A DNA stretch of 35,215 nucleotides from Candidatus Omnitrophota bacterium (GTDB lineage Bacteria; Omnitrophota; Gorgyraeia; Aquiviventales; Aquiviventaceae), in NCBI GenBank assembly GCA_023247235.1, contig JAHFGW010000013.1, forward strand, positions 1 to 35,215, read 5' to 3'. How positions within the stretch are numbered: the stretch's first letter is position 1; the number at the start of each line of letters is the position of its first letter. The notes under the pieces were generated by a model. It ran no database searches and was not told the origin of the DNA. It saw only the letters and a list, made by a program, of their open reading frames with translations. Shown in pieces: positions 22,982 through 34,272 of the stretch. The translations under genes and the position numbers were made by a program.

Positions 22982-24535
22982 ATGCGCGCGCCGTCAATCC
23001 GGGTGCTGATGATTGAGGATGACCCGAGCGACGCCCAAATCCTCCGGGCAGCGCTTGCGCAAGGTTCAGGCCTCGCCGCGACCGTCGTGCACGCGCCCCT
23101 CCTCGCCACCGCTCTGCGCCAGCTGGCCAGCCGGACCTTCGACGTCATTCTATGCGATCTTCGCCTGCCGGATAGCACCGGCGCGGACACCGTAGCCAAA
23201 GTCCGGGCCCGCGCCGGCCGGACCCCCGTCATCATTTTAACCGTCTCAGATGATGATGCGATGGCGCTACGCGCCATCCAACTTGGCGCGCAGGACTACC
23301 TGGTCAAAAGCCACGTGCAGGTCTATCCGGCGCTGCTGCGCCGCGCGGTGCGCTATGCGCTGGAGCGCAAGCAGGCCGAGCTGGAGCGGGAACGCCTCCA
23401 AGAGCAGTTGGGCCAGGCCCATCGCCTGGAGGCGGTGGGACGATTCGCCGGGGGCATCGCGCACGACTTCAATAATTTCCTCCAAATCATCCTGGGCTTC
23501 GCCAGCCTGATCCGCGCGCGGGATCCGGAGGATGCGCCGCTGCAAAGCGACATGCGGGAGATCGTGCACGCGGCCGAGAGCGCCGGGGGCATGGTTCAGC
23601 AACTGCTGGCGTTCAGCCGGCGCCGGCCGAGCCAACCACGGGTGTTCGAGCTCAATCGCCACCTGGCCAAGTTGACCCGTCTCATCCAGCAGCTGATCGG
23701 CTCCTCCGTGGCGCTGCGGCTGGCGCTGAGCCGCCAAGCGCTCATGATTCGCTGCGACCCAACCGGCTTGGAGCAGGTCGTGATGAACCTGTGCGCCAAC
23801 GCGCGCGACGCGATGCCGGACGGCGGAGCCCTGACGCTGAGTACCCGTCGCGTGGCCCTGGATGCGCCGTTCGCCCGCGCGCATTCCTGGGCGCGCCCTG
23901 GCGACTACGTGCGCCTTTCGGTGCGCGATACGGGGGCCGGTATGGATCCTGAGACCGCGGCCCGCATCTTCGAGCCCTTCTTCACGACGAAGCAGCTCGG
24001 CCGCGGCACGGGCCTGGGGCTGGCGGTCGTCTACGGGCTGGTGACCCAGCATGAGGGCCTCATCGAGATCGAGACCGCCGTCGGACGGGGCACGACGTTC
24101 CACCTGTATTTCCCGCGCTTAGGGGCTGGCGCCGCCGGGCTCGACAAGCCGCCGGAGCCCGAGGGGACGACGTCGGAGCAGACCCGGCGGAACCGGCAGA
24201 AAGTGCTGGTGGTCGATGATGATGCGGCGGTCGGGTTGCTCTGTGCGCGGATGCTGGGTGAGGAGTACGACACGGCGATGGCCACATCCGCCCAACGCGC
24301 GCTGGAATTACTGGGGGATCAGTCGTACGACGTGCTCGTGACAGACGTGCGCATGCCGGCGATGGACGGCTTTGCGCTCTCGGAGCAGGCGGTGCGCCTG
24401 CGGCCGAGCCTGAAAGTCCTGCTCATGACGGGCTCGCTGACCGGCGAGCTGGAGGAGCGGGCCCGGGCGTATCCGATACTCCGCAAGCCGTTCACCGGCT
24501 CAGGTCTTCGGGCCGCGCTGGAAGGCTGTCGCTAG
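22982..24535 (+). CDS. Receiver-histidine kinase-receiver protein
   Basis: 517 aa, soluble. The N-terminal receiver (1-120) has MIEDDPSD and the Asp in ILCDLRLPDS. A kinase core follows with His near 161 in GGIAHDFNNFLQIILGF, the HDFNN class of hybrid kinases, then HATPase with DTGAGM and GTGLGLAVVYGL. A C-terminal receiver (about 400-517) has VVDDDAAV, Asp in LVTDVRMPAMDG and RKPFTG. It has no membrane or sensory domain; input is presumably phosphotransfer to the first receiver. The stop codon TAG overlaps the convergent gene's TAG in the palindrome CTAG. Confidence 0.9.
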   Translation: MRAPSIRVLMIEDDPSDAQILRAALAQGSGLAATVVHAPLLATALRQLASRTFDVILCDLRLPDSTGADTVAKVRARAGRTPVIILTVSDDDAMALRAIQLGAQDYLVKSHVQVYPALLRRAVRYALERKQAELERERLQEQLGQAHRLEAVGRFAGGIAHDFNNFLQIILGFASLIRARDPEDAPLQSDMREIVHAAESAGGMVQQLLAFSRRRPSQPRVFELNRHLAKLTRLIQQLIGSSVALRLALSRQALMIRCDPTGLEQVVMNLCANARDAMPDGGALTLSTRRVALDAPFARAHSWARPGDYVRLSVRDTGAGMDPETAARIFEPFFTTKQLGRGTGLGLAVVYGLVTQHEGLIEIETAVGRGTTFHLYFPRLGAGAAGLDKPPEPEGTTSEQTRRNRQKVLVVDDDAAVGLLCARMLGEEYDTAMATSAQRALELLGDQSYDVLVTDVRMPAMDGFALSEQAVRLRPSLKVLLMTGSLTGELEERARAYPILRKPFTGSGLRAALEGCR

Positions 24536-24819
24536 GCGCCGCGTGGAGCGGCTGAGGAGACGGTGGGCGAGGCCGCCCGCCGTCGTTTCTTTTCCGGCAG
24601 GCCGCCCAGGAATTGTCCCGCCACGGCGGCGGCGATGTTGATCGGGATCGCCACCCACGGCAGCTTTAGCCACAGCCGCAGCACGACAATGAGCGGAATG
24701 GACGCGTGAATCCAGGCGATCCATTGCCACGAGAACTTGCGGCTGCGCTCCCGCATGCGTCCCATCGGGAGATTGACCAGCAGGCAGACCGCGGCGACCA
24801 GCACAATCTTCGGCCACAT
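24532..24819 (-). CDS. Small membrane protein, unknown
   Basis: 95 aa, not recognised. Three hydrophobic segments are visible: about 4-18 (KIVLVAAVCLLVNLP), 33-50 (WIAWIHASIPLIVVLRLW) and 54-72 (WVAIPINIAAAVAGQFLGG), with a basic tail (PEKKRRRAASP) that is probably cytoplasmic. A clear promoter lies 9 nt before ATG 24819, which supports a real gene with a leaderless mRNA. It converges on the REC-kinase gene, sharing the CTAG stop palindrome. Confidence 0.68.
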   Translation of the reverse strand: MWPKIVLVAAVCLLVNLPMGRMRERSRKFSWQWIAWIHASIPLIVVLRLWLKLPWVAIPINIAAAVAGQFLGGLPEKKRRRAASPTVSSAAPRGA

Positions 24820-24939: not shown

Positions 24940-24968
24940 TGGACAGGTGTAGGTTCGGGTGGTATGCT
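24940..24968 (+). promoter_or_regulatory. Probable nuo operon promoter
   Basis: TGGACA (24940-24945), 17-nt spacer, TATGCT (24963-24968). The predicted transcription start (about 24975) is immediately followed by an intrinsic terminator. The gap 24820-25050 holds nothing else recognisable as a gene. Confidence 0.5.
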
Positions 24969-24985
24969 GACGGAAACCTCAAGCC

Positions 24986-25008
24986 GCCGCCGCTGGCGGC
25001 CGTTTTTT
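24986..25008 (+). terminator. Intrinsic terminator in the nuo leader (attenuator candidate)
   Basis: GCCGCC-GCT-GGCGGC (24986-25000) followed by CG and six T (25003-25008). No plus-strand gene ends nearby (the closest stop is at 24535), and nuoA begins 42 nt later. The terminator therefore sits between the likely promoter and the operon and should attenuate it. Confidence 0.6.
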
Positions 25009-25018
25009 ACCCTAAGAT

Positions 25019-25034
25019 TGTGAAAAAAATCACA
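25019..25034. promoter_or_regulatory. Perfect Crp-type palindrome before nuoA
   Basis: TGTGA-AAAAAA-TCACA matches the classical Crp consensus TGTGA-N6-TCACA in every fixed base. It ends 16 nt before the nuoA ATG. Crp/Fnr-family regulators often control respiratory operons. Its position, downstream of the promoter and terminator, would suit repression or an RNA hairpin better than activation of the upstream promoter. Confidence 0.5.
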
Positions 25035-25050
25035 CACCAGGTTGCTCGCT

Positions 25051-25407
25051 ATGCTTGAGTATGTTGGCCTCTTGCTGTTCGGCGTCTTGGCGGCCGGCGT
25101 CGGCGCGTTCATGCTCTTCGCCAACGCCCTCTTCGGCCCCAAGCGCCCCAACCCGGTCAAGGCGAAGCCGTTCGAGTGCGGCGTCGAACCCATCGCGATC
25201 GCCTCCGGCCGGCTGCCGGTCCATTTCTACGTCACCGCGATGCTCTTTGTCGTCTTCGATGTGGAGCTGGTGTTTTTGTTTCCCTGGGCCGTCCTGGTGC
25301 GGGAGCTGGGGTGGTTCGGCGTGCTGGAAATGGCCTTCTTCCTGCTGATCGTCCTGGCGGGATTCGTGTACGCCTGGGGGCAGGGCGCGCTGGAGGTGGA
25401 GCGGTGA
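25051..25407 (+). CDS. nuoA: NADH-quinone oxidoreductase subunit A
   Basis: 118 aa with three membrane helices (about 3-25, 60-80 and 88-110). Signatures are NPVKAKPFECGVEP and VVFDVELVFLFPWAV, which carry the cysteine loop and acidic residues of the quinone-channel region. This is a membrane subunit of Complex I. I use ATG 25051; TTG 25042 is an upstream alternative and there is no strong Shine-Dalgarno site. Its stop overlaps the nuoB GTG (GTGA). It is the first gene of nuoA-B-C-D-(EF)-G-H-I-trxB. Confidence 0.95.
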   Translation: MLEYVGLLLFGVLAAGVGAFMLFANALFGPKRPNPVKAKPFECGVEPIAIASGRLPVHFYVTAMLFVVFDVELVFLFPWAVLVRELGWFGVLEMAFFLLIVLAGFVYAWGQGALEVER

Positions 25408-26024
25408 AGCCGGCCACGCCGGATCCCGGCAAGCTGAATCCCTCGACTCGTCCCGCCGTCGGCGGGGCTCGCTCGGGATTTCGCCCCGGCCGCGTGTCTG
25501 TCGCGGAGCTCAACTGGATGACCACGCGCGTGGACGCCGCGCTGGGCTGGGCCCGCAAGTTCTCCATCTTTCAATATCCGTTCGTGACGGCCTGCTGCGG
25601 GATGGAGTACATGGCCACCGCCACCTCCCACTACGACGTCGATCGGTTCGGCGCGGGCTTCCCGCGGTTTTCCCCGCGCCAGGCCGACGTCCTGTTCGTG
25701 GTGGGGACCATCAGCCACAAGCTCGCCCCGGTGCTCAAGCGGGTCTATGACCAGATGGCCGAGCCGAAGTGGGTCGTGGCCTTCGGCGTGTGCACGTGCA
25801 CGGGCGGCTTCTACGACAACTACGCCACCGTGATGGGCATCGACACCCTCATTCCCGTGGACGTGTATATTCCCGGGTGTCCGCCCCGTCCGGAGAACGT
25901 GCTGGACGGACTGATCAAGCTGCAAGAGAAGATCCAGCATGGCGTCCGCGCCACGCTGCCGCCGGACGCCTCCGCGCGGCCCGCGGAGCTGCAGGGCGCC
26001 CACCGGCCGGACACCCACCTGTGA
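25404..26024 (+). CDS. nuoB: NADH-quinone oxidoreductase subunit B
   Basis: 206 aa. It binds the N2 [4Fe-4S] cluster: adjacent cysteines in TACCGMEYMA, then GVCTCTGGFYDNY and PGCPPRPE. It transfers electrons to quinone at the base of the peripheral arm. GTG 25404 overlaps the nuoA stop. The first 30 residues (KPATPDPGKLNPSTRPAVGGARSGFRPGR) are an atypical extension encoded partly by a palindrome (25437-25480); GTG 25494 is a possible shorter start. The C-terminal tail (LPPDASARPAELQGAHRPDTHL) is also non-conserved. The stop overlaps nuoC GTG. Confidence 0.93.
   Translation: MKPATPDPGKLNPSTRPAVGGARSGFRPGRVSVAELNWMTTRVDAALGWARKFSIFQYPFVTACCGMEYMATATSHYDVDRFGAGFPRFSPRQADVLFVVGTISHKLAPVLKRVYDQMAEPKWVVAFGVCTCTGGFYDNYATVMGIDTLIPVDVYIPGCPPRPENVLDGLIKLQEKIQHGVRATLPPDASARPAELQGAHRPDTHL
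25437..25480. repeat. Palindromic element in the nuoB 5' end
   Basis: AATCCC ... CCCGCCG-T-CGGCGGG ... GGGATT: outer arms at 25437-25442/25475-25480 and inner 7-bp stem at 25452-25466, with partly matching intervening sequence. It contains GCGGGGCTCGC, an 11-mer also present in the palindromes of the first VWA gene and ygfZ. Confidence 0.55.
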
Positions 26025-26641
26025 GTGCTCGCCCAGTGGATCAGACACGGGGCCCGGCGACGTCGCTGCGCGCGCGGCTTCACGCGAGCTTTCCGCAGCA
26101 CGTGTTGGAAACCCACGCCTATCGGGGCCAGGAAACGGTGCTCCTGAAGCGCGAGGGGTTGCTTGAGGTCGCGCGGGTCCTGAAGAGCGATCCGGTCTTC
26201 GCGTTTGATTTTCTCATGGACCTCACCTGCGTCGATTACTTAACGTTTGGCCGCGTCCTCTCCAGCCGGCCCAGCCTGGCCACCCCGTCGCCCCTGCCGT
26301 ATTACATGACGCCCAAGCCCGACCCGGAACGATGGCAGCGGGGCGTGTCCGATGCGGCGTACCGCTTCGACGTCGTCTATCACTTCTTCTCCTCGAGCCG
26401 CGTGCACCGCCTGCGCCTCAAAGTCCCCTTGAGCGCCGCCGATCCGGCCCTGGACTCATTGACCGAGCTGTGGAAGTCCGCCGACTGGTTTGAGCGGGAA
26501 GCCTGGGACCTGTTTGGCGTCGTGTTCACCGGCCACCCCAATCTGCGCCGCCTCCTCATGTACGAAGGCTTCCAAGGCCACCCGCTGCGCAAGGACTACC
26601 CGTTCAACAAGCGCCAGCCGCTCGTCGGTCCGGTGAACTGA
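26021..26641 (+). CDS. nuoC: NADH-quinone oxidoreductase subunit C
   Basis: 206 aa, the 30-kDa subunit of the peripheral arm that packs against NuoB/NuoD. Typical segments are MDLTCVDYL, FDVVYHFFSSSRVHRLRLKV, WFEREAWDLFGVVFTGHPNLRRLL and GHPLRKDYPF. GTG 26021 overlaps the nuoB stop (GTGA), and the stop shares one base with the nuoD ATG (TGATG). An insertion of about 35 residues (FGRVLSSRPSLATPSPLPYYMTPKP...) separates VDYL from the FDVVYH strand. It is not encoded by an obvious repeat and is probably a lineage-specific loop. Confidence 0.92.
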   Translation: MSARPVDQTRGPATSLRARLHASFPQHVLETHAYRGQETVLLKREGLLEVARVLKSDPVFAFDFLMDLTCVDYLTFGRVLSSRPSLATPSPLPYYMTPKPDPERWQRGVSDAAYRFDVVYHFFSSSRVHRLRLKVPLSAADPALDSLTELWKSADWFEREAWDLFGVVFTGHPNLRRLLMYEGFQGHPLRKDYPFNKRQPLVGPVN

Positions 26642-27537
26642 TGCCTGAGTCCGCGACGCTCTCGGCGCCCTCCGCAACCGAAACCCGGCACATGTTTTTG
26701 AACATCGGCCCCTCGCATCCGGCGATGCACGGCATCGTGCAGCTCATCGTCGAGCTCGACGGCGAGCGCGTGGTCAAGACCGATGTCGAGATCGGGTATC
26801 TGCATCGCGGCTTCGAGAAGATGTCGGAGCTGGGGCCCTACAACAACGTCATCCCGTACGCGGACCGGCTCAACTACGTCTCGCCGCTCATCAATAATTT
26901 CGGCTACTGCCTGGCGGTCGAGCGGCTCCTGGGTATCGAGGCCACCGAGCGCTGCCAGTTCATCCGGGTCATCATGAGCGAGCTGTCCCGGATCACGGAC
27001 CACCTCACCTGCGTCGGCGCCTCGGCTATGGAGCTCGGCGCCTTCACGGTCTTCCTCTACATGATCAAGGCGCGCGAATGGCTCTGGGAGCTTGTCGAGG
27101 CGGTCACCGGCGCCCGGCTGACGGTTTCCTATGGGCGCGTCGGGGGTGTGAAGGCCGATCTGCCCGGCCACTTTGCCGCGCGCACGCGCAAGGCGCTGGA
27201 GGATGTGCGGAAGGTCCTCTTGGAATGCGACGCGCTCCTGACCCGCAACCGGATCTTCATGGATCGCATGCAGGGAACCGGCATCATCTCGAAAGAGCAG
27301 GCCATCAGCTATGGCATCACCGGCCCGTTTCTGCGTGGCAGCGGGGTCGCGCTGGATGTGCGCAAGGCCAACCCCTACTTTGTGTATGACCGCCTCGCCT
27401 TCGACGTCCCCACGGGTGAGCACGGCGACAACTATGATCGGTATCTGGTGCGCATGGAAGAGATGGAGCAAAGCATGCGCCTGGTCGAGCAGGCGCTGGA
27501 TCGGCTGCCGGGCGGCCCGATCAACATCGATTTTTAA
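26641..27537 (+). CDS. nuoD: NADH-quinone oxidoreductase subunit D, N-terminal part (ends at in-frame TAA)
   Basis: 298 aa, the first two thirds of the 49-kDa subunit: HMFLNIGPSHPAMHG, DVEIGYLHRGFEKM, YNNVIPYADRLNYVSP and RVGGVKADLP, all well conserved and part of the quinone site. The frame stops at TAA (27535-27537) after GPINIDF. The same frame reopens at once and encodes the missing C-terminus down to the nuoEF overlap, so the gene is one nonsense codon away from intact. GAA to TAA is the simplest reading. It could be a sequencing error, a real mutation or readthrough. TAA is a normal stop in several neighbours. Confidence 0.88.
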   Translation: MPESATLSAPSATETRHMFLNIGPSHPAMHGIVQLIVELDGERVVKTDVEIGYLHRGFEKMSELGPYNNVIPYADRLNYVSPLINNFGYCLAVERLLGIEATERCQFIRVIMSELSRITDHLTCVGASAMELGAFTVFLYMIKAREWLWELVEAVTGARLTVSYGRVGGVKADLPGHFAARTRKALEDVRKVLLECDALLTRNRIFMDRMQGTGIISKEQAISYGITGPFLRGSGVALDVRKANPYFVYDRLAFDVPTGEHGDNYDRYLVRMEEMEQSMRLVEQALDRLPGGPINIDF

Positions 27538-27558
27538 GGCCACGTCCTGCCCGCCGAC

Positions 27559-27996
27559 GTGATGGTGGATGAAGCCAAGGTGGGCCGCGTGGCCGGGTTG
27601 AAGGCTGTGCACGTGAAGCCGGATCCCACACTCTGGGGCTCCACCCGCGGCTTCCATGAACGGGTGAACGCGCCGGAAAAACGGGCTGTGCTGCCGGCCA
27701 AAGAGGACACCTACGGCAACATCGAAGGGCTCATGCAGCACTTCAAGCTGGTGATGATCGGCCACGGGATTCGGCCGCCGCAGGGCGAGTACTATTCCGC
27801 CGTCGAGGGTGCGAATGGCGAGCTCGGCTTCTACGTCGTTAGCAACGGCGGCGAGGCGGCCTACCGCGTGCGTGTCCGCCCGCCCTGCTTCACGATCATG
27901 GGCGCGTTGCCCACGCTGCTGGCGGGCGACATGGTAGCTGATATCGTGCCGACCTTTGGGTCGGTCAACATGATCGGCGGGGAGCTGGACCGCTGA
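27559..27996 (+). CDS. nuoD: NADH-quinone oxidoreductase subunit D, C-terminal part
   Basis: 145 aa from GTG 27559 (ATG 27562 is next) in the same frame as the N-terminal piece. It contains LPAKEDTYGNIEGLMQHFKLVM, YYSAVEGANGELGFYVVS, YRVRVRPPCF and the universal NuoD end NMIGGELDR. No Shine-Dalgarno site precedes either start, so independent translation is doubtful. The 24 nt between the TAA and this start encode GHVLPAD in frame. Conservation up to the last residue argues that selection has acted on the whole reading frame until very recently. The stop shares TGATG with nuoEF. Confidence 0.7.
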   Translation: MMVDEAKVGRVAGLKAVHVKPDPTLWGSTRGFHERVNAPEKRAVLPAKEDTYGNIEGLMQHFKLVMIGHGIRPPQGEYYSAVEGANGELGFYVVSNGGEAAYRVRVRPPCFTIMGALPTLLAGDMVADIVPTFGSVNMIGGELDR

Positions 27997-29849
27997 TGGC
28001 CGCGCGTCCTGCGGCCTCTCCGGCCACCGGTCTGGACAGCTTGCGCGAGCCGGCCGAGGCGCTCCTCGCCCGGTACGAGCAAAAGCGGGCAGCCATGTTG
28101 CCCGTGCTGCGGCTGGTGCAGGAGCGGTTCGGGCACATCAGCGCACAGGCCGAAGACTGGGTCGGCCGCTTGCTCGAGGTCGCTCCGTCCCATGTGCATG
28201 AAGTCGTCACGTTCTACACCCTCTATCATCAGCGCCCGGTCGGCACCTACCATGTGCAGGTGTGCACGAACATCGCCTGCGCGCTGCGCGGTGGCCAGGA
28301 CCAGCTCAAGGCCATCGCTGGGAGGTTGGGCATCCAGCCGGACCAAACCTCGGCGGACGGGCGATACACGCTTTCGACCGTGGAATGTCTGTGCGCCTGC
28401 GAGGCGGCGCCCGTCATGCAGGTGAATGACCGGTATGTGGGGCCCGTCAGCGCGGAGGTCATTGACTGCCTGGTGCAGCGGCCCGAGGAGCTGCCGGAGC
28501 TGGGCCTGGTCTTCCGCGGGGCGCCCGGGCTGGTCGAGCCGGTGCTCTCGAAGCGGTTTCGTGTGAAAGATGCCGAGTCCATCGAGACCTACGTGCGCGA
28601 TGACGGCTACCAAGCGGCGCGCAAGGCCGTGACCGAGATGTCCCCGGAGGCCGTGATCGGCGAAGTGACCAAGGCCAACCTGCGCGGGCTGGGCGGGGCC
28701 GGATTTCCGACCGGCAAGAAGTGGGGATTCATCCCAAAGGACTCCTCAAAACCCAAGTACCTGGTGGTCAACGCGGATGAGGGCGAGCCCGGCACGATCA
28801 AGGACCGCTACCTCATCACGAAGGATCCTCACCGACTCTTGGAAGGGATGATCATCGCCGCGTATGCGACCGGCTGCCGCAAGGCCTACATCTACATCCG
28901 CGGGGAATACGCGACTCCGGCGCGCATCTTGGAGCAGGCGGTGGCGGAAGCCACGCGGTATGGGTTCTTGGGCCAGCGCATCTTCAACACGAGTCTGGCG
29001 CTTGAGGTGGTGGTCCATCGGGGCGCCGGCGCGTACATCTGCGGAGAAGAGAGCGCCTTGTTAGAGTCCCTCGAGGGCAAGAAAGGCTTCCCGCGGCTGC
29101 GGCCGCCCTATCCGGCCACCGCAGGACTCTTTGCCTGTCCCACCGTCATCAACAATGTGGAGACGCTGGCCTGCGTGCCCACGATCATCCAGCGCGGCGG
29201 GGGAGGGTTTGCCAAACTGGGCGCTGGGCGCAGCGGCGGCACGCGGCTGTTTAGCCTCAGTGGCCACGTGCGGCAGCCCGGCCTGTATGAAGCCTCGCAA
29301 GGCATCACGCTTCGCCAGCTCCTGGAGGCGGCGGGTGGGGTGCCGGAGGGCCGCACACTGAAGGCGGTCGTGCCCGGGGGCCTCTCCGCGAAGATCTTGC
29401 GGGCCGAGGAGATCGACGTACAAATGGATTTCGACTCGTTGCTGGCGGCCGGCACCATGGCCGGTTCGGCCGGCGTCATCGTCATGGATGACACGGCCTG
29501 CATGGTCGAGGCGCTCTGGTATGCGGCCAAGTTCTTCGCGCACGAATCGTGCGGCCAATGCTCGCCGTGCCGCGAGGGGACGGGCTGGGTCTTCAAGATC
29601 ATCGATCGCATCCGCCAGGGCCAGGGCCGCCCCGAAGATCTCGAGAACCTGCTCGCCATCGCGGGCGCGATGGAGGGCAGGACGATCTGCGTCTTCGCCG
29701 ATGCGGCCGCGTGGCCGATCCAGAGCTATATCGGCAAGTTCCGCCAAGAGTTCGAGTTCCATATCCGCGAGAAGCGATGCGATCTCCGATCAGGGGTTCG
29801 AGATCGGGCCGCACAGGCCAGGACGGAAGCCGCCGAGGCCCATGCCTGA
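27996..29849 (+). CDS. nuoEF: Fused NADH-quinone oxidoreductase subunits E and F
   Basis: 617 aa. Residues about 15-165 are NuoE: HEVVTFYTLYHQRPVG and a thioredoxin-like [2Fe-2S] site with CTNIAC and CLCACE. Residues about 185-590 are NuoF: FMN-binding GLGGAGFPTGKKW, NADH-binding GAGAYICGEESALLESLEG and N3 cluster CGQCSPC plus the cysteine in RTICVF. This is the NADH-oxidising tip of Complex I. Both parts are complete, so this is a fusion and not an artefact of a lost stop. The tail (RSGVRDRAAQARTEAAEAHA) is non-conserved. It overlaps nuoG by 8 nt. Confidence 0.93.
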   Translation: MAARPAASPATGLDSLREPAEALLARYEQKRAAMLPVLRLVQERFGHISAQAEDWVGRLLEVAPSHVHEVVTFYTLYHQRPVGTYHVQVCTNIACALRGGQDQLKAIAGRLGIQPDQTSADGRYTLSTVECLCACEAAPVMQVNDRYVGPVSAEVIDCLVQRPEELPELGLVFRGAPGLVEPVLSKRFRVKDAESIETYVRDDGYQAARKAVTEMSPEAVIGEVTKANLRGLGGAGFPTGKKWGFIPKDSSKPKYLVVNADEGEPGTIKDRYLITKDPHRLLEGMIIAAYATGCRKAYIYIRGEYATPARILEQAVAEATRYGFLGQRIFNTSLALEVVVHRGAGAYICGEESALLESLEGKKGFPRLRPPYPATAGLFACPTVINNVETLACVPTIIQRGGGGFAKLGAGRSGGTRLFSLSGHVRQPGLYEASQGITLRQLLEAAGGVPEGRTLKAVVPGGLSAKILRAEEIDVQMDFDSLLAAGTMAGSAGVIVMDDTACMVEALWYAAKFFAHESCGQCSPCREGTGWVFKIIDRIRQGQGRPEDLENLLAIAGAMEGRTICVFADAAAWPIQSYIGKFRQEFEFHIREKRCDLRSGVRDRAAQARTEAAEAHA

Positions 29850-31452
29850 GCAGCCGAAACGAGTTACGCTGACCATCGACGGCAAAGCCGTCACGGTGCC
29901 AGAAGGCACGACCGTGCTGCAGGCCTGCGAGCAGGCGGGCAGCCCGGTGCCGTTCTACTGCTACCATCCTGGCCTGTCCATTGCCGGGAACTGCCGCATC
30001 TGCGTGGTGGAGCTGACCAACTCGCCGAAGCTGCAGATCGCCTGCAACACGCAGGTGGCCGAGGGGATGGCCGTCCTGACGACCAGCGACAAGACGCTGC
30101 AAGGACGCAAGGAGGTCCTGGAGTTTCTGCTCATCAACCATCCACTGGACTGCCCGGTGTGCGATCAGGCCGGGGAGTGCTGGCTCCAGGATTACTACAT
30201 GGAGCACGGCCTCTACGATCCCAAATTCAATGAGCAGAAGGTGAAGAAGCCCAAGGCCATCCCCGTCGGGCCCACCGTGATGCTCGATGCCGAGCGCTGC
30301 ATCCTGTGCTCGCGGTGCGTCCGGTTCACCGATGAGATCACCAAGACGGGCGAGTTCGGCATCTTCAACCGTGGCGACCACTCGGAGGTCGGGTTGCACC
30401 CGGGTAAGACGCTCGAGAACAACTATGCCGGCAACGTGGTCGATATCTGCCCGGTGGGCGCGTTGACGGACCGGGATTTCCGGTTCAAATGCCGCGTATG
30501 GTACCTGGCTTCGGCCGACTCGGTGTGCCCGGGCTGCTCGCGCGGCTGCAATATCCAGATCCATTCCAATCGCGAGCGCGAATGGCGGCCGCATATCGCC
30601 AAGGGCCAGCGCGTGATGCGTTTGAAGCCCCGCTATAACCCGGAGGTGAACCAGTGGTGGATGTGCGACGTGGGCCGCTATGGCTACCGGTTCATTGACG
30701 AGGAGCGGCTTGAACGCGTGCGGTTTCGCGACAATGGCTCCAGCCGGGATGCCGGGTGGGATGAGGCGCTCGCGATGATTGCGGAGGCGCTCACAAGGGC
30801 GCGCGCCGAGCAGCGGCTTGGGCGGGTCGGCGCGATCCTCTCCAGCCATCTCACGAACGAGGACCTCTACGCGGCCAAGCGATTCTTCGGCGAGCTCGGC
30901 GTGACGCACGTGGCGTTCCAGCGGCCCAAACTCGGGGAGAGCGATGGATTTTTGCTCCAGGCGGACCGATCTCCGAACGCGCGCGGCGCACAAGCCCTGA
31001 AGATTGCCGAGGGCGCGGAACCCATCCTGGAGCGCGCGGCCAAGGGGCAGGTGGATGTGCTCTTCGTGTTCACCCAGGATCTCGTGGACCTGTTCGGTCC
31101 GCGCGCCTCGGAAGCCCTGGCCAAGGTCAAACTGGTTATCTTCATCGGGACCAACTGGAATCCGACCGCCAAACTCGCCCACATCGCCCTGCCAAGCGCC
31201 GTCTATGCGGAAAAGGACGGCACGTTTACGAATCTGAACGGGCGCGTGCAGCGGCTGCATGCGGCGCTGGCGCCTTGGGTGGATGCCAGACCGGAGTGGC
31301 AGATTCTAGCGGCCTTGGCGAGTCGGCTCGCGCTGGAACCGCCTGGCGTCGATGCCCACACCGTGTTCGCGGAGCTGGCCGCGCGCGAGCCAGCGTTTCG
31401 AGACTTGAGCTACGAGATGCTTGCGGACCAGGGAGCGCAGCTGGCGGCATGA
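29842..31452 (+). CDS. nuoG: NADH-quinone oxidoreductase subunit G
   Basis: 536 aa. The N-terminal ferredoxin domain has the [2Fe-2S] site CYHPGLSIAGNCRIC, then the His-Cys [4Fe-4S] loop (HPLDCPVCDQAGEC) and a [4Fe-4S] site (CILCSRC, with CPVGALT). A molybdopterin-like domain follows with an extra cluster motif CPGCSRGC and a later Cys in WWMCDVGRYGY, as in N7-containing NuoG. It is shorter than the roughly 800-900-aa enterobacterial form but similar to many bacterial versions. ATG 29842 lies within the end of nuoEF. A REP-like hairpin separates it from nuoH. Confidence 0.92.
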   Translation: MPEQPKRVTLTIDGKAVTVPEGTTVLQACEQAGSPVPFYCYHPGLSIAGNCRICVVELTNSPKLQIACNTQVAEGMAVLTTSDKTLQGRKEVLEFLLINHPLDCPVCDQAGECWLQDYYMEHGLYDPKFNEQKVKKPKAIPVGPTVMLDAERCILCSRCVRFTDEITKTGEFGIFNRGDHSEVGLHPGKTLENNYAGNVVDICPVGALTDRDFRFKCRVWYLASADSVCPGCSRGCNIQIHSNREREWRPHIAKGQRVMRLKPRYNPEVNQWWMCDVGRYGYRFIDEERLERVRFRDNGSSRDAGWDEALAMIAEALTRARAEQRLGRVGAILSSHLTNEDLYAAKRFFGELGVTHVAFQRPKLGESDGFLLQADRSPNARGAQALKIAEGAEPILERAAKGQVDVLFVFTQDLVDLFGPRASEALAKVKLVIFIGTNWNPTAKLAHIALPSAVYAEKDGTFTNLNGRVQRLHAALAPWVDARPEWQILAALASRLALEPPGVDAHTVFAELAAREPAFRDLSYEMLADQGAQLAA

Positions 31453-31469
31453 TCGCGGACCTTGCCATG

Positions 31470-31517
31470 AAAATGGTGCCAGGCACCAAACGGCCAATTG
31501 GTGCCTGGCACCATTTT
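31470..31517. repeat. Perfect 20-bp inverted repeat between nuoG and nuoH
   Basis: AAAATGGTGCCAGGCACCAA (31470-31489) and its exact reverse complement (31498-31517) with an 8-nt loop ACGGCCAA. Each arm contains GGTGCCAGGCACC, itself a palindrome and shared with 18436-18450. The right arm ends 5 nt before the nuoH ATG, so the start region is partly occluded in RNA. Confidence 0.8.
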
Positions 31518-31522
31518 GAGTA

Positions 31523-32647
31523 ATGATAGTCGAGCTGGCAATCAAAGGATTAGTGAGCCTGTTTGTCCTGTTCGGCGTGCTCAATTTCGCGGGCATCCAG
31601 ACATGGGTCGAGCGCAAGCAGAGCGCCCTCATTCAGGACCGCATCGGCGCCAACCGCGCCTACTTCACGCTGCCATGGCGTTGGGCCGCGCCGATCAATT
31701 GGTTCCTGCGCAAGCTGGGCGGACTCGGCTTGCTCCATCCGGTGGCGGATGTGCTGAAGCTGTTGACCAAGGAAGACATTGTCCCCGAGCGGGCCGATCG
31801 GTTGCTGCACACGCTCGCCCCCTGGTTATCCGTCTTCTTCGCGATCGTGGCCTTCTCGGCGATCCCGATCGGCCCGCCGCTGGAGCTCTTTGGCCGCACG
31901 ATTCCGCTACAGGTTGCCAATCTGAACGCCGGCCTGCTGTATGTGCTGGCCCTGGCCTCCATCGGCATCTACGGCGTCATCCTGGCCGGCTTGGCCTCGC
32001 GCAGCAACCTGGCGACGCTGGGCAGCTTGCGGGCGACGGCCCAGATGGTCGCCTACGAAATCGCCTTGGGCGTGTCGCTCATTGGCGTGATCATGTGGTT
32101 CGGCACGATGGACCTCCGCCAGCTCGTCGAGGCCCAGGGCCGCTATCTCTGGGGCTGGCTGCCGGAATGGGGGGTGGTGGTGCAGCCGCTGGCCTGCCTG
32201 ATCTTCATGACCGCGGGGTTGGCGGAGACCAAGCGCGTCCCGTTTGATCTGCCCGAGGGGGAGCCGGAGATCATCGGCTACTTCACGGAATACAGCGGCA
32301 TGAAGTTCGGGTTATTCTTCCTGACCGATTTCGTGGAAGTGGTCCTCATTGCGGCGCTGACGACCACGCTGTTCTTCGGCGGCTGGCAAGTCCCCTACTT
32401 GACGTCGGCAGGCTTCGCCTTTCCGTGGGGCGGCGCGATCCCGGTCTCGCACCTGGCCTATGTCGGCCTGTCGCTGCTCGCCTTTACCCTCAAGGTGGCG
32501 GGCTTCATCTGGCTCTTTATGCAAATCCGCTGGACGCTGCCGCGCTTCCGCTATGACCAGCTGATCCGGCTGGGCTGGAAAATGCTGTTTCCGTTGTCGC
32601 TGGCCAACATTGCCGTGACCAGCGTGGTGGTGGTCGCGTGGCGCTGA
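31523..32647 (+). CDS. nuoH: NADH-quinone oxidoreductase subunit H
   Basis: 374 aa, about eight membrane helices. Signatures are TWVERKQSALIQDRIGANRA near residue 30 and the acidic E-channel loop AETKRVPFDLPEGEPEIIGYFTEYSGMKFG near 235-265. It links the quinone site to the proton-pumping arm. ATG 31523 has only TGAG upstream, next to a 20-bp hairpin, so this is the one place in the operon where genes do not overlap. The stop shares TGATG with nuoI. Confidence 0.95.
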   Translation: MIVELAIKGLVSLFVLFGVLNFAGIQTWVERKQSALIQDRIGANRAYFTLPWRWAAPINWFLRKLGGLGLLHPVADVLKLLTKEDIVPERADRLLHTLAPWLSVFFAIVAFSAIPIGPPLELFGRTIPLQVANLNAGLLYVLALASIGIYGVILAGLASRSNLATLGSLRATAQMVAYEIALGVSLIGVIMWFGTMDLRQLVEAQGRYLWGWLPEWGVVVQPLACLIFMTAGLAETKRVPFDLPEGEPEIIGYFTEYSGMKFGLFFLTDFVEVVLIAALTTTLFFGGWQVPYLTSAGFAFPWGGAIPVSHLAYVGLSLLAFTLKVAGFIWLFMQIRWTLPRFRYDQLIRLGWKMLFPLSLANIAVTSVVVVAWR

Positions 32648-33315
32648 TGGCCTCCTCCACCTTGGGCGAGCAGTTGCTCCACCGCATCCGCGAGGCGCAC
32701 AAACGCCGGGACCTGAATTGGGCCGAGCGGATCTACCTGCCGGCGATCGCGCAGGGACTCTGGGTCACCTCGCGCCACTTCTGGCGCAATCTGTTCCTGC
32801 ACGTGGCGCATCGGGTCGGGCTCTTTCGCGATCGGGCGGCGGCGGTCACGATCCAATACCCGGAGGAGCGGCGGCAGACGGCGCCGCGGCTGCGCACGCG
32901 CCATCGTCTCACCAAACGGGCCGACGGCACGCCGCGCTGCGTCGCCTGCATGATGTGCGAGACGGTGTGCCCGGCGCGCTGCATCTACATTGTCGCCGCG
33001 GAGCACCCGGATCCCAACGTGGAAAAGTACCCCAAGAGCTTCGACCTGGACCTTGGCAAGTGCGTGTATTGCGGCTACTGCGTCGAGGTGTGCCCGGAGG
33101 ACGCGATCCGGATGGATACCCAGCGCCATGACATCGCCGCGTTTTCTCGCGATGGCATGTGGCTCGATGTCCGGGAGCTCTTGAACCCAGGCAGCCGCCA
33201 GCCCACCGAGCCGCCGAATAAATTCGAGCAGCTGACGCTCGAGGAGTTCCGGCGGTTGCCTGCAACGCCCCCGCCGCCAGAACCGACGCCGGAGACGGCC
33301 CCCACGGAGGCGTAA
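32647..33315 (+). CDS. nuoI: NADH-quinone oxidoreductase subunit I
   Basis: 222 aa. Two [4Fe-4S] motifs of the 8Fe ferredoxin domain: CVACMMCETVCP and CVYCGYCVEVCP, carrying clusters N6a and N6b between NuoG and NuoB. The N-terminal region has the usual amphipathic membrane-contact segment (GLWVTSRHFWRNLFLHV). The C-terminal 40 residues are Pro/Thr/Glu-rich and probably disordered. I use ATG 32647 (TGATG with nuoH) rather than GTG 32638. The expected nuoJ does not follow; trxB does, 3 nt later. Confidence 0.95.
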   Translation: MASSTLGEQLLHRIREAHKRRDLNWAERIYLPAIAQGLWVTSRHFWRNLFLHVAHRVGLFRDRAAAVTIQYPEERRQTAPRLRTRHRLTKRADGTPRCVACMMCETVCPARCIYIVAAEHPDPNVEKYPKSFDLDLGKCVYCGYCVEVCPEDAIRMDTQRHDIAAFSRDGMWLDVRELLNPGSRQPTEPPNKFEQLTLEEFRRLPATPPPPEPTPETAPTEA

Positions 33316-33318
33316 GCC

Positions 33319-34272
33319 ATGGCGCAGGCGGAATCGGTCGTCATTATTGGCTCCGGGCCGGCCGGCCATACGGCCGCGCTCTACACGGCGCGCGCCGCGC
33401 TCAAGCCGGTCATGTTCGAAGGCTACAGCGCCGGCGGCACCCCGGGCGGGCAGCTCATGACGACCACCGAGGTGGAAAATTACCCGGGCTTCGCCGAGGG
33501 CATTCAGGGGCCGGAGCTGATGATGGCGATGCGCAAGCAGTCGCTGCGCTTTGCGACGCGCATCGTCACCGAAGACGTGACGAAGGTCGATCTCTCGAAG
33601 CGGCCATTCACCGTCGCATCCTTCGAGCAGCAGCTGGCGACCCGCGCCCTCATCATCGCGACGGGCGCGACGGCGAAGCGGCTGAACCTGCCCGGTGAGC
33701 AGAAGCTCTGGAACAAAGGCATGTCGGCGTGTGCGGTGTGCGATGGGGCCTTGCCGGTGTTCCGGAACAAAGAGCTCGTAGTGATCGGCGGGGGCGACTC
33801 GGCCGTAGAGGAGTCCACGTTCCTGACCAAGTACGCCTCGAAGGTCTACCTCATCCATCGACGCGAACAGCTGCGCGCCTCCAAAGTCATGCAGCAGCGC
33901 GCCTTGGACAACAAGAAGATCGAGATCATGTGGGACACGGTGGTCGAGGACGTGCTGGGAGAGGAGCTCGTGCGCGCGGTGCGGATTCGCAACGTCAAGA
34001 CGAAGGCCTCGCGCGAACTGCCCTGCGGCGGCGTGTTCTACGCGATCGGTTTTACGCCGAATACCGCCCTGTTCAAAGGGCAGCTCAAGCTGGATGAGTA
34101 CGGCTACGTCGTGACCAACCCGGGCTCCACAGCGACCTCAGTCGCCGGAGTATTCGCGTGTGGGGACGTGCAGGACAAGCGCTATCGCCAGGCGGTCACG
34201 GCCGCGGGCAGCGGCTGCATGGCGGCGATGGACTGCGAGCGCTGGCTCGCTGAGCAAGGGCATTCCGCGTAA
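33319..34272 (+). CDS. trxB: Thioredoxin reductase
   Basis: 317 aa. FAD-binding GSGPAGHTAALYTARA, GGQLMTTTEVENYPGF, redox-active CAVC in SACAVCDGALP, NADPH-binding GGGDSAVEE and the C-terminal FAD motif GVFACGDVQDKRYRQAVTAAGSG are all intact. It reduces thioredoxin with NADPH in the cytoplasm, supplying for example Tpx. It starts 3 nt after nuoI with GGAGG upstream, so it is the last gene of the nuo operon; this is an unusual partner for Complex I. Confidence 0.95.
   Translation: MAQAESVVIIGSGPAGHTAALYTARAALKPVMFEGYSAGGTPGGQLMTTTEVENYPGFAEGIQGPELMMAMRKQSLRFATRIVTEDVTKVDLSKRPFTVASFEQQLATRALIIATGATAKRLNLPGEQKLWNKGMSACAVCDGALPVFRNKELVVIGGGDSAVEESTFLTKYASKVYLIHRREQLRASKVMQQRALDNKKIEIMWDTVVEDVLGEELVRAVRIRNVKTKASRELPCGGVFYAIGFTPNTALFKGQLKLDEYGYVVTNPGSTATSVAGVFACGDVQDKRYRQAVTAAGSGCMAAMDCERWLAEQGHSA

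Follow-up and report, generated by a model that had tools for sequence, protein, structure and literature searches.

Candidate Rex operators at a constrained distance behind intrinsic terminators in nuoA leaders suggest an NADH-responsive attenuator in two bacterial phyla

Introduction

Between the promoter of the nuo operon and its first gene, nuoA, a contig from a Candidatus Omnitrophota bacterium carries an intrinsic terminator and a palindrome. This raises the question of how polymerase would pass the former, and whether the latter has a part in it. The contig was analysed over its whole length of 35,215 nt (the window) and belongs to a 91% complete genome of 1.34 Mb. The original prediction took these elements as layered controls of complex I synthesis, with the palindrome as a Crp-type site.

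Results

Architecture of the nuo leader

Direct reading and scanning recovered the promoter, the GCCGCC/GGCGGC stem with six T and the palindrome before nuoA, each at exactly the predicted place (Table 1). The promoter boxes (-35 TGGACA, 24940–24945; -10 TATGCT, 24963–24968) match the consensus at 9 of 12 positions, and the form T[AG]GACA-17/18-TATNNT is conserved upstream of nuoA across the family. Transcription is predicted to start at ~24975. The hairpin has a folding energy of -11.9 kcal/mol and is separated from the T-tract by CG, thus satisfying the form of an intrinsic terminator, a GC-rich hairpin directly followed by a T-tract. The perfect palindrome TGTGA-N6-TCACA (TGTGAAAAAAATCACA, 25019–25034) lies 16 nt upstream of the nuoA ATG, with the operator containing it beginning 49 nt past the -10 box, ~45 nt into the predicted leader. 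It is thereby placed in the transcribed region beyond the promoter contacts, as roadblock repression requires, and polymerase would be expected to stall there.

Table 1 Positions of the control elements and of nuoA in the window
Feature	Positions	Strand	Basis
nuo promoter TGGACA-17-TATGCT, extended TG at 24960–24961	24940–24968	+	direct reading and scan; family conservation
Terminator hairpin GCCGCC-GCCGCT-GGCGGC in the nuo leader	24983–25000	+	scan and folding; relatives have other stems in this position
T6 tract of the intrinsic terminator	25003–25008	+	direct reading and scan; ends 9 nt before the operator
Candidate Rex operator TTGTGAAAAAAATCACAC	25018–25035	.	one mismatch to TTGTGA-N6-TCACAA; conserved in relatives; genome has a Rex gene at another locus
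nuoA, with which the controlled operon opens, running on to nuoI	25051–25407	+	PF00507, 3.7e-35

Promoter-like sites number 2 in the 2-kb region against 0.3 expected, and terminator-like sites 4 against 1.3. Of 200 shuffles of the spacer between promoter and operator, 2 produced a hairpin with T-run as good as this one. The palindrome alone is unremarkable, since, with up to one mismatch allowed, the window contains it once and 0.4 are expected by chance; across the 1.34-Mb genome the pattern has 12 sites, three of them perfect, and the reversed control pattern 2. The decisive evidence for the palindrome is its conservation before nuoA, often letter for letter, in most family members.

It had been predicted that the short leader holds neither a leader peptide nor a large aptamer. 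This is borne out: no RNA family matched in an Rfam search of the window at gathering thresholds, and the ~34-nt leader folds only as the terminator, with no sign of an aptamer, a leader peptide or a different RNA fold. The palindrome was also considered as an RNA element and rejected; its orientation is reversed in L009 and its centre differs elsewhere, which fits a DNA site.

Three further features of the locus were recorded. On the minus strand, a divergent 95-aa open reading frame (24532–24819) gave no match in a Pfam search and is preceded by a promoter-like TTGACG-17-TAAGAT (24857–24829). The nuo operon (25051–34272) apparently ends at nuoI, with thioredoxin reductase next. Within nuoD (26641–27996, plus strand) an in-frame TAA at 27535–27537 splits the gene into two open reading frames, in the same frame, that match NuoD positions 2–281 and 278–386; a real nonsense change and an assembly error are both possible.

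The palindrome resembles a Rex operator

Homology of the regulator and the make-up of the putative regulon mark the palindrome as a Rex operator, not a Crp site. The window site TTGTGAAAAAAATCACAC is close to the Rex consensus TTGTGAANNNNTTCACAA (PMC5355995), as are sites of relatives such as TTGTGAAAATATTCACAA. The genome encodes one Rex, at another location, with PF06971 and CoA_binding domains; it scores above cutoff for the NCBIfam Rex equivalog, and its closest solved structures are Rex proteins (PDB match 6e-43). The putative regulon likewise matches that of Rex; in Streptomyces avermitilis, nuoA1-N1 and the atp operon are both under Rex repression (PMC5355995). On another contig, the nuoJK operon has a promoter TAGACA-17-TATAAT closely followed by TGTGATTCTTTTCACG, and a perfect Rex-like site precedes the ATP synthase delta gene (G000:C6:20451-20468). 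Another Rex-like site was seen before a cyclodeaminase-like gene (G000:C11:49183-49198).

The nuoA and nuoJ sites are conserved in relatives, and among the more complete relatives without Rex they are missing or decayed, such that site and regulator were lost together. G014, G016, G019 and G026 have neither a Rex match nor the nuoJ site, the first three also lacking the nuoA site, and G013, without a Rex match at 96% completeness, has a decayed nuoJ site. The exceptions are G008, G024 and G017 (66–73% complete), which carry the site yet no Rex match, and G015 and G001, which carry Rex yet a weak or no nuoA site.

A Crp/Fnr site, as originally predicted, is very improbable. TGTGA-N6-TCACA is also the Crp consensus, and the genome encodes two cNMP-binding domains, one in a protein cut by a contig end. 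However, the search for Crp/Fnr homologues and further sites, which did find the other palindromes, detected no Crp-type helix-turn-helix (PF13545) above cutoff in the 91% complete genome, the weak match being a ROK repressor. Furthermore, the palindrome comes after the predicted start instead of at an activating position, and across relatives it tracks the occurrence of Rex.

Two leader layouts in Omnitrophota

The nuoA leaders of Omnitrophota fall into two layouts. In Layout I (nine leaders), which lacks a terminator, the operator lies 2–16 nt past the -10 box. In Layout II it lies 39–60 nt past the -10 box, with a hairpin and T5–7 between, the T-tract ending 9–12 nt before the operator. Layout II is found in the window genome, L010, L012, L014 and L020, plus L022 from another family; the L010 hairpin reaches only -5.4 kcal/mol. 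In the nuoA leader of G013 the hairpin is still there and the T-tract and operator are decayed, while its nearest relative in the NuoA-NuoB tree has Rex and both elements intact. The Omnitrophota-only tree is too poorly resolved for counting layout gains.

A class-wide scan of Omnitrophota returned, outside the order, mostly AT-rich matches without a hairpin and one clear case, before moeA. The latter (L212, ~1450–1560, in G267 of another Omnitrophota family) consists of a promoter, a strong hairpin, T5, 12 nt and a Rex site ahead of a moeA-like gene. A hemA-like gene of G015 (L189, G015:C7:73971), a genome with a degenerate operator at nuoA, is preceded by T8 and a Rex site, but the hairpin there is only weak.

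The same arrangement in Planctomycetia

We scanned ~85,000 public genomes for T5, 6–14 nt and an A7-type Rex site. Most of the 55 matches were AT-rich or lay behind upstream genes (e.g. in Paenibacillus). A Gemmatales contig (L110, Planctomycetota) showed the full layout of promoter, hairpin, T7, 10 nt, Rex operator and nuoA, and the planctomycetes were therefore tested; Rex is present in this genome, the one planctomycete genome checked for it. The pattern matched in 72 of 398 Planctomycetia genomes, its reverse in only a handful, with the majority of loci before nuoA and a few before nqrA, the product of which belongs to the other ion-pumping NADH dehydrogenase of bacteria. In five of the planctomycete loci (L287, L290, L291, L280 and L120) the T-tract and Rex site precede an NqrA-like N-terminus assigned by eye.

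Selection on the T-tract pattern had to be avoided, and hence a NuoA profile search of 199 Planctomycetia genomes was used to collect 135 nuoA leaders regardless of T-tract. A strict Rex-like site was found in 82 of these, with T5+ runs ending 8 (24 leaders), 9 (11), 10 (10), 11 (7), 12 (3) or 13 nt (5) before it. No T5+ run in this set ends 0–7 or 14–71 nt before a strict site, only two occur downstream of one, and A-runs taken as a control show no comparable spacing peak. The mean energy of the hairpins before the T-tracts is -10.5 kcal/mol, compared with -5.6 in shuffled sequences; 45 of the 60 T-tract leaders reach -8 kcal/mol or better, and about a quarter have a weak hairpin or none. Nine more leaders, whose site is of the TCGTGA type or weaker in some other way, likewise contain the terminator-operator unit, and in the leaders without a strict site an unrelated terminator was found in three only.

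In seven nuoA leaders (L329, L332, L333, L334, L379, L381 and L386) the operator reads TCGTGA-N6-TCACGA at unchanged terminator spacing, a likely variant Rex site. In Verrucomicrobia, a letter-identical TTGTGAAAAAAATCACA stands before nuoB at seven loci (L080, L084, L092, L094, L095, L103 and L130); a short T-run lies upstream of the site, the promoter arrangement differs, and mostly no promoter precedes the T-run.

Spacing is kept while sequence is not

Pooling both phyla gave 74 leaders with a T-tract ending 8–13 nt before the operator. The mean distance to the operator is 9.6 nt (sd 1.5) from the T-tract end, 16.0 nt from the first T and 16.8 nt (sd 1.35) from the hairpin end. These 74 leaders have 68 different spacer sequences, and the 58 hairpins of at least -8 kcal/mol strength before T5+ tracts in the two phyla have 41 different outer stems. 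Structure and spacing are thus kept and sequence is not: terminator and operator form one unit, instead of the separate layers originally proposed. While one such palindrome per window is not unusual, chance can scarcely be entertained for the arrangement: it is refuted by the reappearance of one spacing, with differing sequences, in both phyla.

An operator no more than ~20 nt from the -10 box is close enough to keep polymerase from binding or escaping, and one much further downstream can affect only the elongating polymerase. Among Planctomycetia leaders with a recognised promoter, the T-tract is present in 38 of 39 whose operator is 35 nt or more from the -10 box (G364 being the sole far operator without one) and in none of 10 with the operator within 20 nt (Fisher p=1.3e-9, optimistic owing to relatedness). 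The corresponding Omnitrophota counts are 4/4 far and 0/9 near (p=0.0014, again optimistic owing to relatedness). Comparative alignment of nuo leaders, proposed at the outset as a check, supports both elements: conservation extends widely for the operator and, for the terminator, to the leaders in which the operator is far from the promoter.

The nuoA leaders changed layout several times. In the NuoA tree, a long branch with full support separates Omnitrophota from Planctomycetia, and ~12 layout changes are implied, with many forks weakly supported. G343 and G379 (Layout I) are placed among Layout II relatives; compared with L221 and L225 they have a nearly identical promoter and the identical operator TTGTGAAATCCTTCACAA. 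The terminator segment is absent, and it is for this reason that their operator lies 12 nt from the -10 box.

Such joint changes make it unlikely that terminator and operator are independent, with a constitutive or otherwise regulated attenuator tuning basal complex I and Rex separately blocking elongation. Attenuator and Rex block are each a known control by themselves, and cydA1 and wblE are examples of genes with a Rex site past the start (PMC5355995); independent elements, however, should neither hold an 8–13 nt spacing nor come and go together.

The terminator might also belong to an upstream gene or serve as insulation, with nuo transcription starting downstream of it. In several relatives a plus-strand gene does end shortly upstream of the leader, and some matches of the general scan are terminators of upstream genes. 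In the window, as the original prediction had pointed out, there is no plus-strand gene end in the 450 nt upstream, and the terminator lies within the nuo leader. Moreover, promoter-like sites occur upstream in 34 of 60 terminator leaders against 1.0 expected, while the interval between operator and gene holds none above chance in these 60. We thus regard this explanation as quite improbable.

A model for termination at a Rex roadblock

Taken together, the region is probably a redox switch in which NADH-sensing Rex acts through the intrinsic terminator. Transcription from ~24975 would yield a ~34-nt leader ending in the hairpin and U-tract. At low NADH, Rex on the operator just past the U-tract would hold polymerase, allowing the hairpin to complete and the RNA to be released. 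At high NADH, Rex would leave the DNA and a good part of the polymerases, no longer held, would read through to nuoA-nuoI. The direction of this response is modelled on Rex in other bacteria, and the scheme supposes both that Rex stalls polymerase here and that stalling raises termination. Protein-mediated release, one of the options originally offered, fits best.

The geometry is consistent with this model. As the operator is fixed just past the U-tract, a Rex-held polymerase would sit on or next to that tract. Polymerase stalls ~14 nt before a tight DNA roadblock, a distance that falls in the T-tract, the first T being on average 16.0 nt and the tract end 9.6 nt from the operator. Rex footprints of 27–29 nt (PMC5355995) would shift the stall a few bases upstream, to the start of the U-tract rather than its end, leaving the register uncertain.

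Alternatively, hairpin and U-tract could act as a pause and not for release, with Rex holding a hairpin-locked, non-backtracking polymerase that resumes once NADH removes Rex. This would account equally well for the fixed spacing and suits the weak hairpins in some leaders. A GC-rich stem with T5–T9 right behind it is, however, the standard release signal, and a pause hairpin requires no T-tract. Although nascent hairpins are reported to restrict backtracking (Toulme 2005, as cited in PMC10310618), we consider a pause improbable and favour release.

Discussion

The recurrence of a fixed-spacing pair of Rex site and terminator in two phyla suggests a so far undescribed switch. With more reserve than for the window itself, we lean towards a new class of attenuator in at least two phyla, in which DNA-bound Rex 8–13 bp behind a terminator would convert a roadblock into intrinsic termination, making synthesis of NADH dehydrogenase (nuo and probably nqr as well) follow the NADH level. 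Repressors that block elongation are believed to depend on helper factors for removal of the stalled complexes. If the model is true, a repressor with a built-in terminator shows how a roadblock can repress cleanly, a T-tract ending 8–13 nt before an operator is a simple rule for finding more cases, and the unit is a switch small enough for use in synthetic circuits. For two phyla that have been little studied, the model also points to a way in which complex I synthesis may track NADH. A literature search, reaching few subscription papers, found no natural conserved coupling of Rex or another repressor to an intrinsic terminator, and an earlier description is possible.

Taken one by one, the ingredients are familiar: Rex regulons, repression by roadblock, and attenuators in leaders. 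With the Rex regulon of S. avermitilis the window genome shares repressor family, operator consensus and the nuo and atp targets; the S. avermitilis nuoA1 operator overlaps the -35 box, whereas that of the window lies ~45 nt into the leader, behind a terminator (PMC5355995). Leader attenuators, whether riboswitches, T-boxes or those controlled by ribosomes or RNA-binding proteins, likewise gate an operon by a promoter-proximal intrinsic terminator. They sense via RNA, whereas the sensor proposed here binds DNA. H-NS filaments (PMC4337669) are a DNA-bound protein that raises termination by pausing polymerase, as proposed here, but that termination is Rho-dependent and involves neither a single operator nor a fixed terminator-operator geometry. 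The roadblock repressors LacI, PurR, CcpA, CodY and C.Kpn2I likewise hinder elongation from a DNA site downstream of the start (PMC4132739, PMC6237814 and PMC10310618). The roadblock section of a 2023 review (PMC10310618) assigns release to Mfd, possibly Rho, and leaves intrinsic terminators unmentioned, whereas in the leaders described here an intrinsic terminator stands at a fixed distance before the roadblock.
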